From IMG/VR virus record IMGVR_UViG_3300001835_000008, positions 1-23,436 of that record: a stretch of 23,436 nucleotides of DNA; one strand, 5' to 3'. This DNA is from a virus. Below are positions 922 to 9,445 of this stretch, piece by piece. The notes under the pieces were generated by a model. That model saw only the letters and a list, made by a program, of their open reading frames with translations, had not been told where the DNA came from and ran no database searches. Within the stretch, counting starts at the first letter, position 1. Each line of letters opens with the position of its first letter. A program made the translations under genes and the position numbers.

Positions 922-2688
922 TTATACAATAGTCCATGTAGACCCCTGAGATATAGTAATCTCTGTTGTTGTACCAATTTCTATAGGACCACCTGAGACT
1001 GCATTTTTACCTGTAGGTATTGTCATATCATTATTAATAGTATTTGAGTGCATAACCATACCCTCAGATTCTACATTCAATCCTGTAAGTCCTGCACCAT
1101 CTCCAACGAATGAAGTAGCATTGACTTGTCCTGTAACCGTAATACCAGTATTCGTTGCAATAGCCTTAGTAGTACCATTGTACTTTAGATCTGGAGCTGT
1201 AGGTCCCATAGGTCCAACGTTACCTGTCTCTCCTTTAAGTCCTGCACCAGTATTAACAGGTCCAAGAAGTAGTTGATCTATTGAAGGCTCTTCGCCATTA
1301 ATCATATCAGCACGTGGAGACCAGAACTCTACTATATTCTGTTCTGTACTAGTATTATAGAATTGGTATCCTCTAATTCTCGCAGTAGTATTAGTAGTAT
1401 CCCACTTATAGTCATGGGAAGTATTAGCTATTTTCTGACCTGTAGTAACAGAATAAATACCAGACTCAGGATGCTCATTAGTACCTGTATGAGAAGATTC
1501 AAATACATATCCTACAATCATATACCATTCATTACTTGTAGGTAGATCTCCAGCCCAAAAGTAAGGATTAGTATTAGGTGTACTAGTATTTAGTCTAAGA
1601 ACACCATTAGGAGTACCATGTAGACCAAAGTAGCGAGTACCATTATTACTTGACTGCTTAATATATGTTACAAATCTGTAACGCTTAGTATGATTAATAG
1701 CTACAAAATCACTATTAAAACCACCCTCAGCATCACTAGTTGTATCAAGATTTGTAGCAACAAGAACTACATCTTGTGAGAATGGAGAATCTCTAAATTG
1801 TCTTGAAGACTCATAATCACTGTTCCCATTCCAAAAAGGATCTGAACCTAGTCCTACCTCAAATGGAGAACCTTCTGTAAATATATTAGTATCATTAACA
1901 TCTGGTCCTGCTGGTCCCACGACACCCTGAGGTCCTGGGACAGAACTATCAGCTCCCTGAGGACCTGTACCACCAGTAGCACCTGTCGTACCAGTAGTTC
2001 CTTGATCTCCTTGGATACCTTGGAGTCCTTGGATACCTTGGTCACCGTCTGGACCTATAGCACCTTGGATACCTGTAGTTCCTTGAGCACCAGTAGCACC
2101 CGTAGCTCCTTGAGGACCTGTTACTCCATCAGAACCAGCGGCACCTGTCGCACCAGTTGCACCAGTAGCACCTGTCGTACCAGTAGTTCCTGTAGTTCCT
2201 GTAGCTCCTTGAGGTCCGGTGTTACCAATAGGACCTTGAATACCATCCTCACCTTGAATACCAGTTGCACCGGTTGCACCAGTGTCACCTGTAGTTCCTT
2301 GAGCACCAGTAAGTCCTGTAGCTCCCTGAGGTCCTACAGCACCTGTGTTACCAGTTGCACCAGTAGCACCAGTATCACCTTGCGGTCCTGTCGCTCCAGT
2401 AGCACCTGCATCCCCAACGATACCTTGTGGTCCAGTAGCACCTGTAGATCCAGTAGCACCTTGTGCACCTGTAGCACCAGTGTTACCTTGTATCCCTTGG
2501 TCTCCAACTTCAGCTAATATCTGCCACTCTAAAGGCTGTGCGGAAGGGATGGAACCAACTACAGGATCTACAATAGCTATGTATGATGATCCATTATATG
2601 ATACGGAATCAAATTCCTCATAATCAGTCGTAGCTGCCCACGACCCTTTCCAGGCCATTCTTATCTTACCTAAATTTAACGTAGCCAC
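922..2688 (-). CDS. Collagen-like tail fibre protein with lectin-like domain
   Basis: A 588-residue multidomain fibre. Residues 1-60 form a W-x-G-x-W / V-x-YNGSSY module resembling small CBM5/12-type carbohydrate-binding folds. Residues 62-247 are 62 uninterrupted Gly-X-Y triplets, rich in GAT and GTT. After a break (DSSVP) four more triplets follow to 263. Residues 265-475 form a globular, aromatic- and N/T-rich region that resembles a jelly-roll carbohydrate-binding domain. A short collagen piece ([14 protein letters not shown]) follows, then a GDGAGLTGL motif at 529-537, and a C-terminus ending [11 protein letters not shown] that is typical of marine phage fibres. The start is GTG, preceded five bases earlier by AAGGAGG that overlaps the TAA of the upstream gene, suggesting coupled translation. 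The role in adsorption is inferred from domains and position. Confidence 0.8.
1082..1120. repeat. Fibre-gene homology segment, copy 2
   Basis: Partner of 784-822, with 35 of 39 bases the same. It encodes [13 protein letters not shown] near the C-terminus of the collagen-like fibre. Confidence 0.75.
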
Positions 2689-3843: not shown

Positions 3844-6711
3844 TTATAAAGCTTTACTTGTATTGCTCACACTTCCACGATAGTTCATAGAGAATATCTG
3901 GAAACCTTCGCTGTCTTTACTAGTCACTGCTAGTTGTATATTATTAACATCACCCATAGTTGAGAACTTATTATCTGGTACATACGAATATGTCTTAGGC
4001 TTATCATTCCCTTTCTTAGTGACCTCTAGGTTATACTTAGATCCTTCACTTACTGAGAACTTGGTATCCCTAAGGCTCAAACGTAGTCTTTGATTGTCTG
4101 TCTTAGATAATTGACCTACTGGGACTCCCCATTTACTTAGTCCTATTCTAGATTCATAAGTATAAGAGTCAACACCAGTAGTTTCATCTAGATATGTATC
4201 AGCTGGAATATATGACATATTCTTGAACGTATTCAAGCTAATTGATTTATGTACTACCGTGTCATCTTCTTCAAGTATGATAGAAAGCTTATTATTGAAT
4301 ATCTCTATATTATGTATAATCCCCGATACTTCCCACTTATGCCATGCTGATTGGGACTTCTCCTCTCCTTGCCACATATAATTATATACATAAATATAAG
4401 TAGGTTTATCAACTTCTATAGGAGTAATTGCAAACAACATATCGTGGTTTGGACATCCTACTAGCTTAGTGATACCTCCAGGTATAAAGTGAGGACAGTG
4501 AGATGTTATATCCACTGCATCATTAGAAGCTGTATCCTGCACAACATAGTATTCTCTAACTTTACTAGAGTGTGAGCTACCTTCGGAACCCATTGTGAAA
4601 TAGATATTAGGTCCTAAGGCCACTGGTTTAGCTGCGGCATTAAGTTCAAAAGCTGTCGTCTGTTGTACAGAGACATCCTTAGGGGATAATGTTTTAGTAC
4701 TACTCATTGCAAACTGTGCGTTCCCTCCGAATAATAAGAGTTCCTTAGCGAATGGTATAGCATACTCTAGTTTCACAACCTGATTACTATCAACTGCTAC
4801 ATCTACAGGGTCACTATCTAATACATCTGTAACTGTAGATGGGAAGAAATCATAGTATGTACCTGAAGCACTTAACGTTACATTACTACCACTTATTAAT
4901 CCTAATCTATTTTTATAGAAGAAGATGTCAGTGATAGGTTGACCTACGAATCCTGGAAGAGGTGCTGATTGATTGTCACCTGCTTTTCGTACTCCCCAAC
5001 CTTCGCTGAGTATGATACGCTTTTCAGTGATATACATATTGTCCGAGTCTACGAGAGGATCTCCATTCGTACTTAATACGCTTACATCTCTACCATCTCT
5101 AAGAGGGTTATCATCAGATTTATCTAAAGCTGTGAAATAGAATTGAATGTATGGAGCTACGCCCTCAACCTCTTCATGGTCCCAAGAAGTGTCAGCTGCA
5201 TGTGCTACAGTGAATTTATAAATATCAAGATTATATGATACACGATCACCAATTGAATAAGCTGTAGCTATGTCGAACAAAGGTGTCGACGCTTGTCCTC
5301 TAATTAATGCGTGAGGCATTGTCTCAGGTCTTAGGACTCCTGGTTGTGACGGATGTGCTATCTCATTATAAGCACCATCGTTATACTTAACATAGAAGTT
5401 AGTAAATCCAGTCTCGTCATCTCCGGTAACCTCAATGATAGCATCCTCAAATCCTAACTTAGTAGGTAGGTCGCTGAGCTTCTTAGTACGCCCAGTCCAA
5501 CTTACACTGGCCTGGTCTCCCCAAGAGTCCGAGCCTTTATAGTCGACATCTATAGCTCGCATGACAGAGCCTGAGCTCTCTCCCCTAGATACATTAGTTG
5601 ATAAGTATGATGCAGCAGCCTTAGAGTCATGTGTTATTATAGAGGCTACTGAAGCACCGCTAACTCCATCTGTAATAGAATACGTATAACGTAAGGGTTG
5701 GTTAGTAATGTCAGAACCTCCGGCTGTACGCTTAACCCAGTAGTAGAAGGTACGCTCCCAAGGAGACCCAATATCTGTTAGGGCTGACCAAACAGGCATT
5801 GATCCCGTCACAGGTATAGGGTAAGTAATAATATTGCCTTGGTAAGCAGGCCCCAGCCATTCACCGCCTGAAGTGTGTGTTGGAGACCAATACTCATTGC
5901 CATTTGAGGCGGGGCCTATGGTAACCCTCGTCTCAAAACTTTCTGTTCCAGAGGTAGGATGTGTTAATGTTAGATCAGTGCCTTCAAGAACTGTAGCAGC
6001 TGATAATCTAATAGTCTCAAGTACTTCTCTAAGTCCTATGACTATTTGGTCCTTAACTTCTCTACGCTGGTGATGGACACCGCTGCCATAGAGTTGTATA
6101 CTCTCAGGTCCATTATATATATGATCTATAGGGGATGCTGTATCGTACCAGATACCGTTATACTTAACCCCAACTGTCAAACCTACATGTAAGTAGTCGT
6201 ATATTTTAGGGTAAATACCAGACTCTTGTATCGGCTTCGTCATAAGTTTGAATTCATTACAAGAGAATGAGTAAGAATAAAACTCAGGTTCCTCTTCTAA
6301 GGCTACTAGATCCTCAGTAACCTTAGTCTTATTAACGATATATGTAGTATCACCTGCAGTGTTTAAAGCAAAGGATCTCTTCGGATCAGCACCCTCATGT
6401 ATGTTTAAATATGGATCAGTACCAGAATCTACAAGACTACCATCGTCAGCATATACTGCCCAGTTACCACTCCATATGTAGATAATGTACTCTTCATCTC
6501 CAGCGCCTCTATCATATACATGTGTAAACACGTTAGCTGGTACATCTAACTCAGCTACTTCAATCTTAGCACCTTGTCGTCTCTGTACCCCTGCAACTAA
6601 ACTAGGGTTACAGTTTATCATTAGCTCAGTCTGAGTATCCAGACGTACCTCAGGAGGCTGCTCGGATACACCGTTGAACAATCCTGGTACAGTTTGATTT
6701 ACTAGTGGCAT
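3844..6711 (-). CDS. Tail tubular protein B (T7 gp12-like nozzle)
   Basis: A 955-residue homologue of T7 gp12, the nozzle of the short tail. The N-terminus (VNQTVPGLFNGVSEQPPEVR) matches the family's G-x-S-x-Q-P signature. The conserved central block GFVGQPITDIFFYKNRLGL (588-606) is followed by SDPVDVAV, AIPFAKELLLFGG, VQDTASNDAVDITSHCP and a tryptophan-containing SAWHKWEVSG. It is about 160 residues longer than T7 gp12. Part of the excess is a module at 479-520 (AYSIGDRVSYNLDIYKFTVAH...SWD) just before the conserved block, closely similar to one in tail tubular A. Beta-rich insertions around 250-410 account for more. AAGGA precedes the ATG. It is co-directional with tail tubular A, as in T7. 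Confidence 0.95.
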   Translation of the reverse strand: MPLVNQTVPGLFNGVSEQPPEVRLDTQTELMINCNPSLVAGVQRRQGAKIEVAELDVPANVFTHVYDRGAGDEEYIIYIWSGNWAVYADDGSLVDSGTDPYLNIHEGADPKRSFALNTAGDTTYIVNKTKVTEDLVALEEEPEFYSYSFSCNEFKLMTKPIQESGIYPKIYDYLHVGLTVGVKYNGIWYDTASPIDHIYNGPESIQLYGSGVHHQRREVKDQIVIGLREVLETIRLSAATVLEGTDLTLTHPTSGTESFETRVTIGPASNGNEYWSPTHTSGGEWLGPAYQGNIITYPIPVTGSMPVWSALTDIGSPWERTFYYWVKRTAGGSDITNQPLRYTYSITDGVSGASVASIITHDSKAAASYLSTNVSRGESSGSVMRAIDVDYKGSDSWGDQASVSWTGRTKKLSDLPTKLGFEDAIIEVTGDDETGFTNFYVKYNDGAYNEIAHPSQPGVLRPETMPHALIRGQASTPLFDIATAYSIGDRVSYNLDIYKFTVAHAADTSWDHEEVEGVAPYIQFYFTALDKSDDNPLRDGRDVSVLSTNGDPLVDSDNMYITEKRIILSEGWGVRKAGDNQSAPLPGFVGQPITDIFFYKNRLGLISGSNVTLSASGTYYDFFPSTVTDVLDSDPVDVAVDSNQVVKLEYAIPFAKELLLFGGNAQFAMSSTKTLSPKDVSVQQTTAFELNAAAKPVALGPNIYFTMGSEGSSHSSKVREYYVVQDTASNDAVDITSHCPHFIPGGITKLVGCPNHDMLFAITPIEVDKPTYIYVYNYMWQGEEKSQSAWHKWEVSGIIHNIEIFNNKLSIILEEDDTVVHKSISLNTFKNMSYIPADTYLDETTGVDSYTYESRIGLSKWGVPVGQLSKTDNQRLRLSLRDTKFSVSEGSKYNLEVTKKGNDKPKTYSYVPDNKFSTMGDVNNIQLAVTSKDSEGFQIFSMNYRGSVSNTSKAL

Positions 6712-6727
6712 ATTTTATCCTTTCTCA

Positions 6728-7420
6728 TTAGCCTAATATACCTCTAGGGTTCTTATTACGTGTGATTGCACGTGTTGTAGAAGGGGCATCAAAGATACTA
6801 TAATCTCCAATGTCAGCCTCAGATTCCATTAGTCTTATACGTGCGTTCTCTTCATCTCTACCTAGGACTCCTAGGATCTCTGAGACACCTATGACTCTTT
6901 GGTATAGTATACGCGCCATACGTAGAGTTATATAATATGAAATATCATACTCTAAATCAACAAAGTAGGCATCCCATATAATCTTAACATCTACAGGTTG
7001 GTTTGGTGTGAATAAGAATGAGTTAGCACTCTTATCATACAAGCGGCCGTTCTTAGCAATATGATTATTATCAATACCATCTACTCTAAGTGCGGTTGGG
7101 GGAATATCTATGTATCCCTGAGGGTCAGCCTCGATAGGCCATGCGTCTTCAGTATTAGTATAGAAACCTCTAGCTAGTACTTCTTTACGTACTTCGTCTA
7201 GGATCGTAGCTGCTTGTAGGGCTTCATACGAAGTTACCTCATTAACATGAGATGCGTCCCAGAATCCTTTAGGGTGTGCTGTATGAAATTCATATTCCTT
7301 AGGACCATAAGCAACACGGTCACCTACAGCATACACTGTAGTCTCTGCAAACGGAGCTTCACTGAGCACTTGCTCACCTATTGATTGTAGACCGACATTA
7401 ATAGCTTCTATTTCAGTCAT
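6728..7420 (-). CDS. Tail tubular protein A (T7 gp11-like gatekeeper)
   Basis: A 230-residue homologue of T7 gp11, the adaptor between portal and nozzle. Family features are the N-terminal AINVGLQSIGE segment, the ILDEVRKEVLARGFYTNTE helix, DIPPTALRVDG, the RLYDKSANSF strand, and the C-terminal EILGVLGRDEENARIRLMESEADIGDYS helix. A module at about 23-63 with YAVGDRVAYGPKEYEF and FWDASH interrupts the region between the first two helices and has no counterpart in T7 gp11. A longer frame opens at a GTG at 7468. I chose the ATG at 7420 because AAAGGA precedes it and the family N-terminus aligns there. It is the first gene after the terminator at 7481-7510, so expression probably needs read-through. 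Confidence 0.92.
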   Translation of the reverse strand: MTEIEAINVGLQSIGEQVLSEAPFAETTVYAVGDRVAYGPKEYEFHTAHPKGFWDASHVNEVTSYEALQAATILDEVRKEVLARGFYTNTEDAWPIEADPQGYIDIPPTALRVDGIDNNHIAKNGRLYDKSANSFLFTPNQPVDVKIIWDAYFVDLEYDISYYITLRMARILYQRVIGVSEILGVLGRDEENARIRLMESEADIGDYSIFDAPSTTRAITRNKNPRGILG

Positions 7421-7480
7421 GTTTTTAGTTCCTTTTAAATTTAGGTTTATATTAGGTGCCCTTAACACACACCTAAATCG

Positions 7481-7522: not shown

Positions 7523-8452
7523 CTAGTCGTCAGTAGCCATTTTAACAACACAACCGTTGTTTAGGATACCGAAACCCATAGCATAAGAAGAAACCATTAA
7601 GTCTCCTAATTTCTCTGGGATATAGTTTACTTCTGATTTAATATCAAGAAGCTTAACAACACCTACAGCGTTCTTAGTGAACATGAAGATGTCATTTGAA
7701 TTTACAAGATTGTTAGAACGTAGGATATTGTGACCAGCTACTTGAGTGATCTTACCTGTGTCTAAACCACCGTTACCGTTAGTCATATCTTTATTGATAG
7801 CACCTGATTGAACAAGACGGTTGTAGTTCTTTGGAGATACAACAACATAACGTTCGCCTGGAACATCTGTCTCATCAAAAGCAGTCTGAGCATCGAATAG
7901 TGCAGCAAGAATTGCGTCACCTTTAGTACCATTAGTACCTAAAGCAGCAGTACCTACAGTCTCTAGTGCAATAGCAACTGGCTGACCTTCAGCACCATTG
8001 TTATCACCTGCATTAGCAGCACCAGTGATACATAATTCTAATTGACCGATTACAGCTTTATCAATAGTATTAGCTAATTTACGACCCATTTCAGTAGAGT
8101 ACTGTGAACGAGTTTCGTAGTGAGCCATAGCTTCTTCAAAAGAATCTACGAATACTGAAGCATATTTAAGTGCATCAATTTCAATTACTCTCTCACCAGC
8201 TGAGATAAGGTTTGGAGTGATGTCACTACCAGGAACGTGATCTGCAAGATCTGTATCGTATTTACCGATAACTGCGAAACTAGCTGATTTACCTGATGAA
8301 ATAGTACGTGTTTGTACTAATGGTAAGAAGATGTTTGATGCTTCAAAAGCAGTAAGAACTTCTCCTGAGAATACTTTGATTGCTAAATCTCTGTTTGAGT
8401 CTAAACCTGCAGTACGATCTGTACCGATTCCTTGTGATGGTGTATATGCCAT
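7523..8452 (-). CDS. Major capsid protein (T7 gp10A-like)
   Basis: A 309-residue HK97-fold capsid protein of the T7 type. Recognisable stretches are SNRDLAIKVFSGEVLTAFE at the N-terminus, the VQTRTISSGKSASFAVIGK strand, DALKYASVFVDSFEEAMAHY, the long helix with GRKLANTIDKAVIGQLE, and near the C-terminus PEKLGDLMVSSYAMGFGILN. It is shorter than T7 gp10A (about 345 residues). The gene sits between scaffold and tail tubular A exactly as in T7. An AAGGA lies nine bases before the ATG, at the end of a 213-base leader. The terminator starts just after the stop, leaving no room for a frameshifted minor capsid extension like gp10B. Confidence 0.96.
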   Translation of the reverse strand: MAYTPSQGIGTDRTAGLDSNRDLAIKVFSGEVLTAFEASNIFLPLVQTRTISSGKSASFAVIGKYDTDLADHVPGSDITPNLISAGERVIEIDALKYASVFVDSFEEAMAHYETRSQYSTEMGRKLANTIDKAVIGQLELCITGAANAGDNNGAEGQPVAIALETVGTAALGTNGTKGDAILAALFDAQTAFDETDVPGERYVVVSPKNYNRLVQSGAINKDMTNGNGGLDTGKITQVAGHNILRSNNLVNSNDIFMFTKNAVGVVKLLDIKSEVNYIPEKLGDLMVSSYAMGFGILNNGCVVKMATDD

Positions 8453-8467
8453 TATTAATTCCTTGTG

Positions 8468-8496
8468 TTTTTGTTTGTATTAAATTTTTGTTTGTA
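8468..8496 (-). repeat. Duplicated A-rich 12-mer in capsid leader
   Basis: On the minus strand TACAAACAAAAA occurs twice, at 8485-8496 and 8468-8479, 17 bases apart and just upstream of the capsid ribosome site. The segment has almost no G and should be unstructured. Confidence 0.8.
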
Positions 8497-8615
8497 ACGC
8501 ATTGTCTGATTATTATTAATACACTTCAAGCACTTCGTGGTATCTAGCTCATACATACCTCAGTATGTGTCAGTTAGGCACTAGTTTTTTTAGATTAATT
8601 AATTGTTGTCAATAT

Positions 8616-8651
8616 AGTAGGTCTTACATAGGTATAGAGGGAGGACCTACT
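8616..8651 (-). other. Hairpin between scaffold and capsid genes
   Basis: AGTAGGTC (8616-8623) and GACCTACT (8644-8651) are exact inverted repeats around a 20-base loop, starting 15 bases after the scaffold stop. No T tract follows in the minus direction, so it is not a standard terminator. An RNA-processing or mRNA-stabilising stem is one possibility. Confidence 0.55.
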
Positions 8652-8665
8652 GCCCACACGTACCT

Positions 8666-9445
8666 CTAGTACTTACTTAATGCGACTCTTCGTTGTACTT
8701 CGGCTCTAAATGCAGGATCCTTAGCATACCTAGGTGAAGACATTTCTGCCATCATCTCATGTTTACTTACGAACCCTCCACTAACTGAACCTTGTGTTGT
8801 TCCCTTCAAGAATGAAGGCCCCTTGTCTGCTGAGTAACGAGCATGTAGCCCTTTAATCGCAAACTCTGTTAAAGACGGATCTTCAATAGATTGATTATAA
8901 CTAGCAATCTCTTGCGGAGTTAAAGACTCACTAGCCCAGGTCATCATGTCGCCATACTCAGCTTCCCCACCTACTACATTTTGCATAGTATTGATAGCTT
9001 GCTGACGCATTGCCTCATGTCCTGAGATGTATGAATCCACCATATCCTTAGGAATACCAGAAGCCTCTAAACTCTTGTATGTTTCCTCAGATAGGTTACC
9101 CTTTTCATCATATTCCGTCTGTAGAGCTGAGTAGTCAATGCCTTTATCAGCGGCAATAACCTCTGCATCTTCTTTAGATGTCAGTCCCTCAGTCTCCTTA
9201 ACTACAGTATCTTCAACTGGCGGAGTCGCGGACTCCTCTTTACCCATTCTACTCTGTAGTTCTTCGTAGGCCTTTTCCAATTCCTCTACGGACTTGTACT
9301 TACCTGCTAACATTACTTCCTCGTCAGTTTTCATGCTCTCTGTAGTGTTCACATCGTTGGCGTCAACTTTATCAATCATCGCCTGATCGTGTTCACTTAG
9401 TGTTGGTGTTTGGCTTTCGCTTTCGCTTTGGTTTATCTGTTCCAT
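8666..9445 (-). CDS. Capsid assembly scaffolding protein (T7 gp9-like)
   Basis: A 259-residue acidic, helix-rich protein directly between portal and capsid, the T7 gene 9 position. It opens with an S/E/T-rich segment (MEQINQSESESQTPTLSEHD). It contains LAGKYKSVEELEKAYEELQ (47-65), a motif that recurs in T7-type scaffolds, and later QAINTMQNVVGGEAEYGDMMTWA (about 133-155), a segment with E-Y-x-x-M-x-x-W-A typical of the family. It is basic towards the C-terminus (RAEVQRRVALSKY), the end expected to contact the capsid shell. T7 gp9 is slightly longer. GAGG lies about 11 bases before the ATG. The start lies inside the preceding small ORF. Confidence 0.9.
   Translation of the reverse strand: MEQINQSESESQTPTLSEHDQAMIDKVDANDVNTTESMKTDEEVMLAGKYKSVEELEKAYEELQSRMGKEESATPPVEDTVVKETEGLTSKEDAEVIAADKGIDYSALQTEYDEKGNLSEETYKSLEASGIPKDMVDSYISGHEAMRQQAINTMQNVVGGEAEYGDMMTWASESLTPQEIASYNQSIEDPSLTEFAIKGLHARYSADKGPSFLKGTTQGSVSGGFVSKHEMMAEMSSPRYAKDPAFRAEVQRRVALSKY

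Follow-up and report, generated by a model that had tools for sequence, protein, structure and literature searches.

A probable sugar-binding module that T7-like phages appear to move around the virion

Results and discussion

The same small module is inserted in two tail-tube proteins

We describe here a small domain of about 40 residues, resembling the family 5/12 carbohydrate-binding modules (CBM5/12), which is inserted in both tail-tube proteins encoded by the IMG/VR virus record IMGVR_UViG_3300001835_000008 (the window, by which we mean the whole stretch of 23,436 bases that was analysed) and of which the same subtype occurs in close relatives as part of the major capsid protein. The window carries a T7-like structural operon on the minus strand encoding the portal, scaffold, capsid, adaptor, nozzle and collagen-type fibres, and the two tail-tube proteins in question are the adaptor and the nozzle. 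The ability of podophages to stick to surfaces is usually ascribed to their tail fibres, and from sequence comparisons we suggest that the module is a roaming virion-surface domain, as these phages appear to move a probable sugar-gripping part around the particle.

The module sequence is FAETTVYAVGDRVAYGPKEYEFHTAHPKGFWDASHVNEV in the adaptor (nt 7235-7351) and FDIATAYSIGDRVSYNLDIYKFTVAHAADTSWDHEEVEGV in the nozzle (nt 5158-5277), both on the minus strand, which is essentially where the original prediction, made from the DNA sequence alone, had placed a motif shared by the two proteins. When the complete adaptor and nozzle were compared with one another, the top local alignment consisted of exactly these two segments with a score of 74, and the similarity is beyond chance because none of 500 shuffled adaptor sequences reached this score (the maximum was 68). 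Both segments correspond to gaps in alignments with 11-12 named relatives, and T7 gp11 and gp12, which had been said to have no such module, align to the flanks on both sides, and hence the segments are insertions rather than ordinary parts of the adaptor and nozzle families, which would have refuted the prediction. In the adaptor, the insert takes the place of the loop joining the first two helices (α1-α2), and in the nozzle, it lies between the conserved MPHAL(I/V)R on its N-terminal side and W-x2-R-x2-GD on its C-terminal side. The module is rare in either protein, as a module profile run against the whole collected set matched 2/135 distinct adaptors and 2/154 distinct nozzles, with the window contributing one of each. 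On this evidence and the predicted folds below, the two segments are independent small modules of the CBM5/12 type (ChiA1 chitin-binding-domain type) in loops of an otherwise normal T7-like adaptor and nozzle (see Table 1 for all window features).

Table 1. Modules, inserts and genes considered in the window.
Feature	Position (nt)	Strand	Evidence or remarks
CBM5/12-type module in adaptor α1-α2 loop	7235..7351	-	CBM_5_12 22.7 bits; gap in relatives; predicted fold
CBM5/12-type module in nozzle loop (T7 gp12 equivalent about residue 316-327)	5158..5277	-	CBM_5_12 27.0 bits; gap in relatives; pLDDT 84-93
Remainder of nozzle insert (about 51 residues following the module), no family recognised	4999..5157	-	Absent from most relatives
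CBM5/12-like N-terminal module of collagen-repeat fibre, different subtype	2515..2652	-	CBM_5_12 20.3 bits, E=1.7e-5 in own genome
Adaptor (tail tubular protein A, T7 gp11-like)	6728..7420	-	Pfam Tube PF17212 E=6e-23; PHROG 446; VIA-align Z 19.6 to T7 gp11
Nozzle (tail tubular protein B, T7 gp12-like), 955 aa	3844..6711	-	Pfam Phage_nozzle PF25675 E=1.8e-131; PHROG 457; model Z 34.6 to T7 gp12
Collagen-repeat fibre gene	922-2688	-	
Major capsid protein, without module	7523..8452	-	Insertion point in relatives follows Pro158 (nt about 7978/7979), from alignment with L017, L110 and others, which have 42 additional residues here

Family identity and predicted folds

The Pfam CBM_5_12 profile (PF02839) matched exactly three places over the whole record, namely the nozzle and adaptor modules and the N-terminus of the collagen fibre. 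The nozzle module (E=1.3e-7 in its own genome, and 28.2 bits in another test) lies above the curated Pfam cut-off of 26.2 bits, and the adaptor module (E=3.0e-6 in its own genome) scored 20.2-22.7 bits. The profile also matched 11/11 modules tested individually, and the capsid module of the related locus L110, described below, scored 33.9 bits and was over the cut-off. When a profile built from 11 modules (A11) was searched against PDB, the top matches were chitinase A of Chromobacterium violaceum (4TX8, E=1.5e-4) and the ChiA1 chitin-binding domain (1ED7, E=1.2e-3), with several chitin deacetylases lower down amid weaker and unrelated matches. The CBM5/12 resemblance noticed originally is thus supported by the Pfam profile, by chitinase chitin-binding domains in the PDB profile search, and by the adaptor fold comparison.

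The ChiA1 core is formed by Trp656, Tyr662, Val668, Tyr670, Tyr675, Cys677, Leu695 and Trp696 (PMC3701571). The modules have invariant F/Y/V/Y/Y at positions 656, 662, 668, 670 and 675 (11/11), so that Tyr662, Val668, Tyr670 and Tyr675 are identical to ChiA1 and Trp656 is replaced by Phe in all 11, and Cys677 is also replaced by Phe. The Trp aligned with the surface residue Trp687 of ChiA1 (1ED7), which stacks on the sugar and has a major role in chitin binding (PMC3701571), is again invariant in 11/11 modules. We refer to a CBM5/12-type domain and not to a CAZy CBM because the carriers are adaptor, nozzle, capsid and fibre proteins and no catalytic domain was found in the proteins bearing the window's module copies.

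The AlphaFold2 model of the adaptor has a mean predicted local distance difference test score (pLDDT) of 88, with 86-94 in the insert, and its body matches T7 gp11 in VIA-align. Residues 34-79 of the adaptor match CBM5/12 chains with Z 6.2-7.7 and a root-mean-square deviation (rmsd) of 1.3-2.0 Å over 42-44 residues. The best of these was from the Agrobacterium phage Milano (8fqc, Z 7.7, rmsd 1.4 Å, 43 residues), and others were from the fibres of Agrobacterium phage 7-7-1 (9rkv, Z 7.5), the chitin deacetylases 3wx7 and 4nz1, and chitinase C (1wvv). Milano and 7-7-1 provide the closest solved phage structures to the module, but in these the domain is part of the baseplate receptor-binding complex or the tail fibres and not of a tail-tube or capsid protein. 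The nozzle model has a mean pLDDT of 75 and a body matching T7 gp12, and the strands of its module (490-493, 496-500 and 515-518) have the same spacing as those of the adaptor module (51-54, 57-61 and 75-77). Structure prediction and comparison, which had been proposed as a check, therefore give a CBM5/12 match for the adaptor insert and the same strand pattern for the nozzle module. It should be noted that the alignments behind both models were of IMG/VR loci only and included additional rows, positioned by MAFFT, with fragments of the module from other proteins, which aids the folding of the module. A structure search with the whole nozzle returned nozzle-type and propeller chains only and is uninformative about CBMs, as a domain this small can readily go unnoticed in a model of 955 residues.

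A looser third copy had been proposed at the N-terminus of the collagen fibre. It is present, but weaker, with scores of 15.8-20.9 bits across tests (below the curated cut-off) and a match covering only positions 2-24 of the 44 in the CBM_5_12 profile, and it is of a different subtype from the two tail modules.

The module occurs in the capsid of relatives

Relatives were gathered by profile scans of IMG/VR, and their capsids were up to about 78% identical to that of the window; single-protein scans of viral contigs using the window's nozzle or adaptor found no relatives, whereas the profile scans did. In nine of these IMG/VR loci the major capsid protein contains the module, which adds about 42 residues between the equivalent of Pro158 and the segment AILASLFDAQ, and a scan with the module alignment brought the total to 21 contigs with 15 distinct module-bearing capsid open reading frames (ORFs). 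At the capsid-module loci the adaptors are without the window's insert, as are the nozzles where the contig covers the site, and the window's own capsid is without the module. L017, which has the nozzle most similar to that of the window (59% in the best segment), provides a direct example of this exchange between capsid and tail. The original prediction covered the copies in the window, and the larger pattern beyond it is that the closest relatives bear the module in their major capsid protein.

The window's two tail modules score highest against the capsid modules and the modules of four otherwise unrelated phages (L179, L183, L190 and L191), and other phages also have the same subtype, both in proteins with matches to tail or fibre families and in some without a family match. 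A further nozzle, that of L129, has two tandem modules near its N-terminal third (27.3-31.8 bits), at a site that differs from the window's and is without modules in the related L119. The capsid modules group as a single clade with a support of 99/93 (14 rows), and repeated gain of the module by the capsid is therefore not supported. They have a pN/pS (non-synonymous to synonymous polymorphism) ratio of 0.35 compared with 0.19 for the rest of the capsid, and we regard them as being under purifying selection because of the former value.

Two loci differ in the presence of the capsid module. L110 (capsid 8001-9053) has it and L101 (capsid 13-888) does not, with diverged local flanks, and the two are 97.9% identical over 3.3 kb from the 3' part of the capsid gene onward and 94% identical before this. 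The sequences suggest that a capsid segment was exchanged by recombination, and L101 looks like a replacement by a module-free allele. These two phages make a natural pair for comparing particles with and without the capsid module.

Glycan adhesion and alternative roles for the module

The window has sugar-binding-type modules on three of its proteins, and relatives have them on the capsid. The reading we favour, and which we consider somewhat more likely than not, is that these are multivalent, low-affinity glycan-binding sites on the outside of the virion, held in loops of proteins that act as scaffolds, and that they can be gained, lost or moved. Sugar binding is predicted, and glycan adhesion is the most likely role in view of the purifying selection on the capsid modules and of precedents in other phages. 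In the lactococcal 936 phages, CBMs inserted in neck and major tail proteins bind host cells, with avidity through copy number stressed by the authors (PMC6669499), and the T4 capsid protein Hoc binds mucin via Ig-like domains (reviewed in PMC9853417). A ring of sugar-binding decorations had been envisaged for the tail, and the ring itself is a fair expectation because T7 has 12 adaptors and 6 nozzles (PMC6702177). With T7 stoichiometry the adaptor ring would present 12 modules and the nozzle 6, the fibres would add further copies, and a module-bearing capsid would display hundreds. Many weak sites displayed in this way might hold the particle on host surface polysaccharide, or on N-acetylglucosamine-rich particles or mucus, until the fibres engage the receptor, and if the carrier protein serves as a scaffold only, the module would be free to be gained, lost or moved.

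Several observations weigh against glycan adhesion. The adaptor module on its own is under the curated Pfam cut-off, and of the ChiA1 core residues, Leu695 and the C-terminal Trp696 are not conserved in the modules. Gln679, a second ChiA1 ligand residue which the title of a cited work names alongside Trp687 in chitin binding (PMC8449059), is also not kept. The adaptor insert lies in the α1-α2 loop, which in T7 contacts the nozzle platform, where it adopts two alternating conformations (PMC6702177), and outward exposure of the module is our inference. Finally, in the T4 capsid an insertion domain of chitin-binding-like fold has a structural role, linking adjacent molecules and lending the capsid stability (PMC3185693).

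The last two points are also the support for a structural alternative, in which the modules are clamps of the CBM5/12 fold, with the adaptor insert packing on the nozzle platform to steady the 12-to-6 symmetry mismatch and the capsid module bracing neighbouring subunits. We consider it unlikely, though the strongest of the alternatives, as the surface Trp used by ChiA1 for ligand binding is invariant across three different proteins with differing neighbours, which a clamp would not need, near-identical phages exist with or without the capsid module, and other phages have the same subtype in proteins with tail-fibre family matches.

The modules might otherwise be near-neutral, that is, small self-folding domains which are tolerated in virion loops and spread by recombination with little function of their own. 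Their presence differs between close relatives, the nozzle has two more inserted segments for which the collected ORFs contain no relative, and the adaptor loop carries unrelated inserts in other phages such as L114. We nevertheless find this explanation improbable given the purifying selection on the capsid modules, the invariant ligand Trp, the persistence of the module across the whole capsid clade, and the finding of three modules of one fold family in a single genome. That the segments are simply a regular part of the gp11 and gp12 folds and alike only by coincidence, as might be thought of two short motifs of which one is sub-cut-off in Pfam, is refuted by the alignments and fold comparison, since both are insertions with respect to T7 and nearly every relative, no shuffled sequence reached their score, and a compact domain with CBM5/12 structural matches is predicted.

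Comparison with known systems

The module matches the CBM5/12 domains of enzymes (PF02839; 1ED7 and 4TX8) in profile and fold, with conserved aromatics in part of the core and a Trp687 equivalent, but differs from these in being inserted within virion structural proteins instead of joined to an enzyme, in its length of about 40 residues, and in having no C-terminal core Trp. The 936 lactococcal siphophages provide the nearest parallel, as they have CBMs on several structural proteins of one virion type (NPS, MTP and evolved Dit), shuffled between phages and in high copy number expected to yield avidity (PMC6669499). However, the 936 phages are long-tailed and infect Gram-positive hosts, and their CBMs are larger and BppA-like, whereas here T7-like podophages have 40-residue CBM5/12-type domains on adaptor, nozzle and capsid. 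The T4 capsid insertion domain and the BIG2-like domain of phi29 (PMC3185693) are similarly carbohydrate-binding-like or Ig-like domains inside HK97-fold capsid proteins, but their described role is stabilising and each belongs to a single capsid protein, in contrast to a module common to capsid, adaptor and nozzle. An uncultured phage protein in BFVD annotated as a 'ChiA1_BD domain containing protein' (A0A6J5LNM8) matches the modelled adaptor in structure (E=2.6e-6, TMq 0.52), from which it seems that ChiA1-type domains may occur on adaptor-like proteins elsewhere; it differs in being 492 aa long and has 13% identity.

CBM-decorated virions are therefore already known, and it is the spread of a CBM5/12-type module over the capsid, adaptor and nozzle of one phage group that is new as far as our searches reach. 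No capsid with a CBM5/12-type module was found among the named phages scanned, nor any open-licence paper linking CBM_5_12, phage and capsid, and each of these is weak evidence of novelty. That one 40-residue sugar-binding-type domain is a portable part of the T7-like virion, grafted several times and at several sites in the capsid, adaptor and nozzle and present or absent within near-isogenic natural pairs, with glycan adhesion evolving by module moves and not by fibre change, is a broader proposal on which we consider the evidence evenly balanced. If the tail tube and shell do carry removable sugar-binding modules, then retention on surfaces, particles and mucus could evolve independently of host range. 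The modules may also be seen as small ready-made display sites, placed in adaptor, nozzle and capsid loops that evidently tolerate their presence.

Other inserts and gene arrangements

The adaptor start is probably the ATG at nt 7420, with AAAAGGAA upstream, and the ORF is also open to a GTG at 7468; the residue numbering of the original prediction (23-63 for the adaptor segment) fits the ATG rather than the GTG. In the nozzle, residues 533-567, which are part of the remainder of the module insert, have a predicted pLDDT of <50, and a BLAST of this remainder (4999..5157) against the collected ORFs gave no match. A second, larger nozzle insert of about 185 aa is found at residues 134-318 (window 5758-6312, minus strand), equivalent to about 135-150 of T7 gp12 and near the start of the tip domain. 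This is modelled mostly with low confidence, and again no match was found by BLAST among the collected ORFs.

The module-bearing adaptor loop has other contents elsewhere. The adaptors of L117, L119, L120, L121 and L129 have an insert of about 100 residues there with the CBM5/12-like aromatic pattern W...TAY..DDEV...W.VAKTAHTG..PP....W, which we did not count as CBM5/12 as it has no Pfam match and is only marginal with the module profile. In L114 (8922-9665) the loop holds a different, Cys-containing repeat (CSITTHTTETACTGASPAGTWTKFDNS...), and the loop seems to be an insertion hot spot because this unrelated repeat is found where the window has its module. One of the otherwise unrelated phages mentioned above, L179 (2-5449), encodes four CBM_5_12 modules, of the window's tail-module subtype, in a protein that is at least 1816 aa long and matches phage structural and tail-fibre PHROGs.

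Two further gene arrangements were noted amongst the collected loci. The major capsid gene is interrupted in L125 (1170-2714), L122-L124 and L126-L128, where a 57-aa N-terminal piece is followed by a 122-aa ORF and then the remaining 253 aa. The 122-aa ORF resembles an HNH/endonuclease VII-type protein, and an intron encoding a homing endonuclease is the probable cause of the interruption; a search for Rfam families gave no match. The nozzle of Synechococcus phage S-CBP42 (L015, 4588-7756) consists of two overlapping ORFs, unannotated in the record, which suggests a frameshift or sequencing error.

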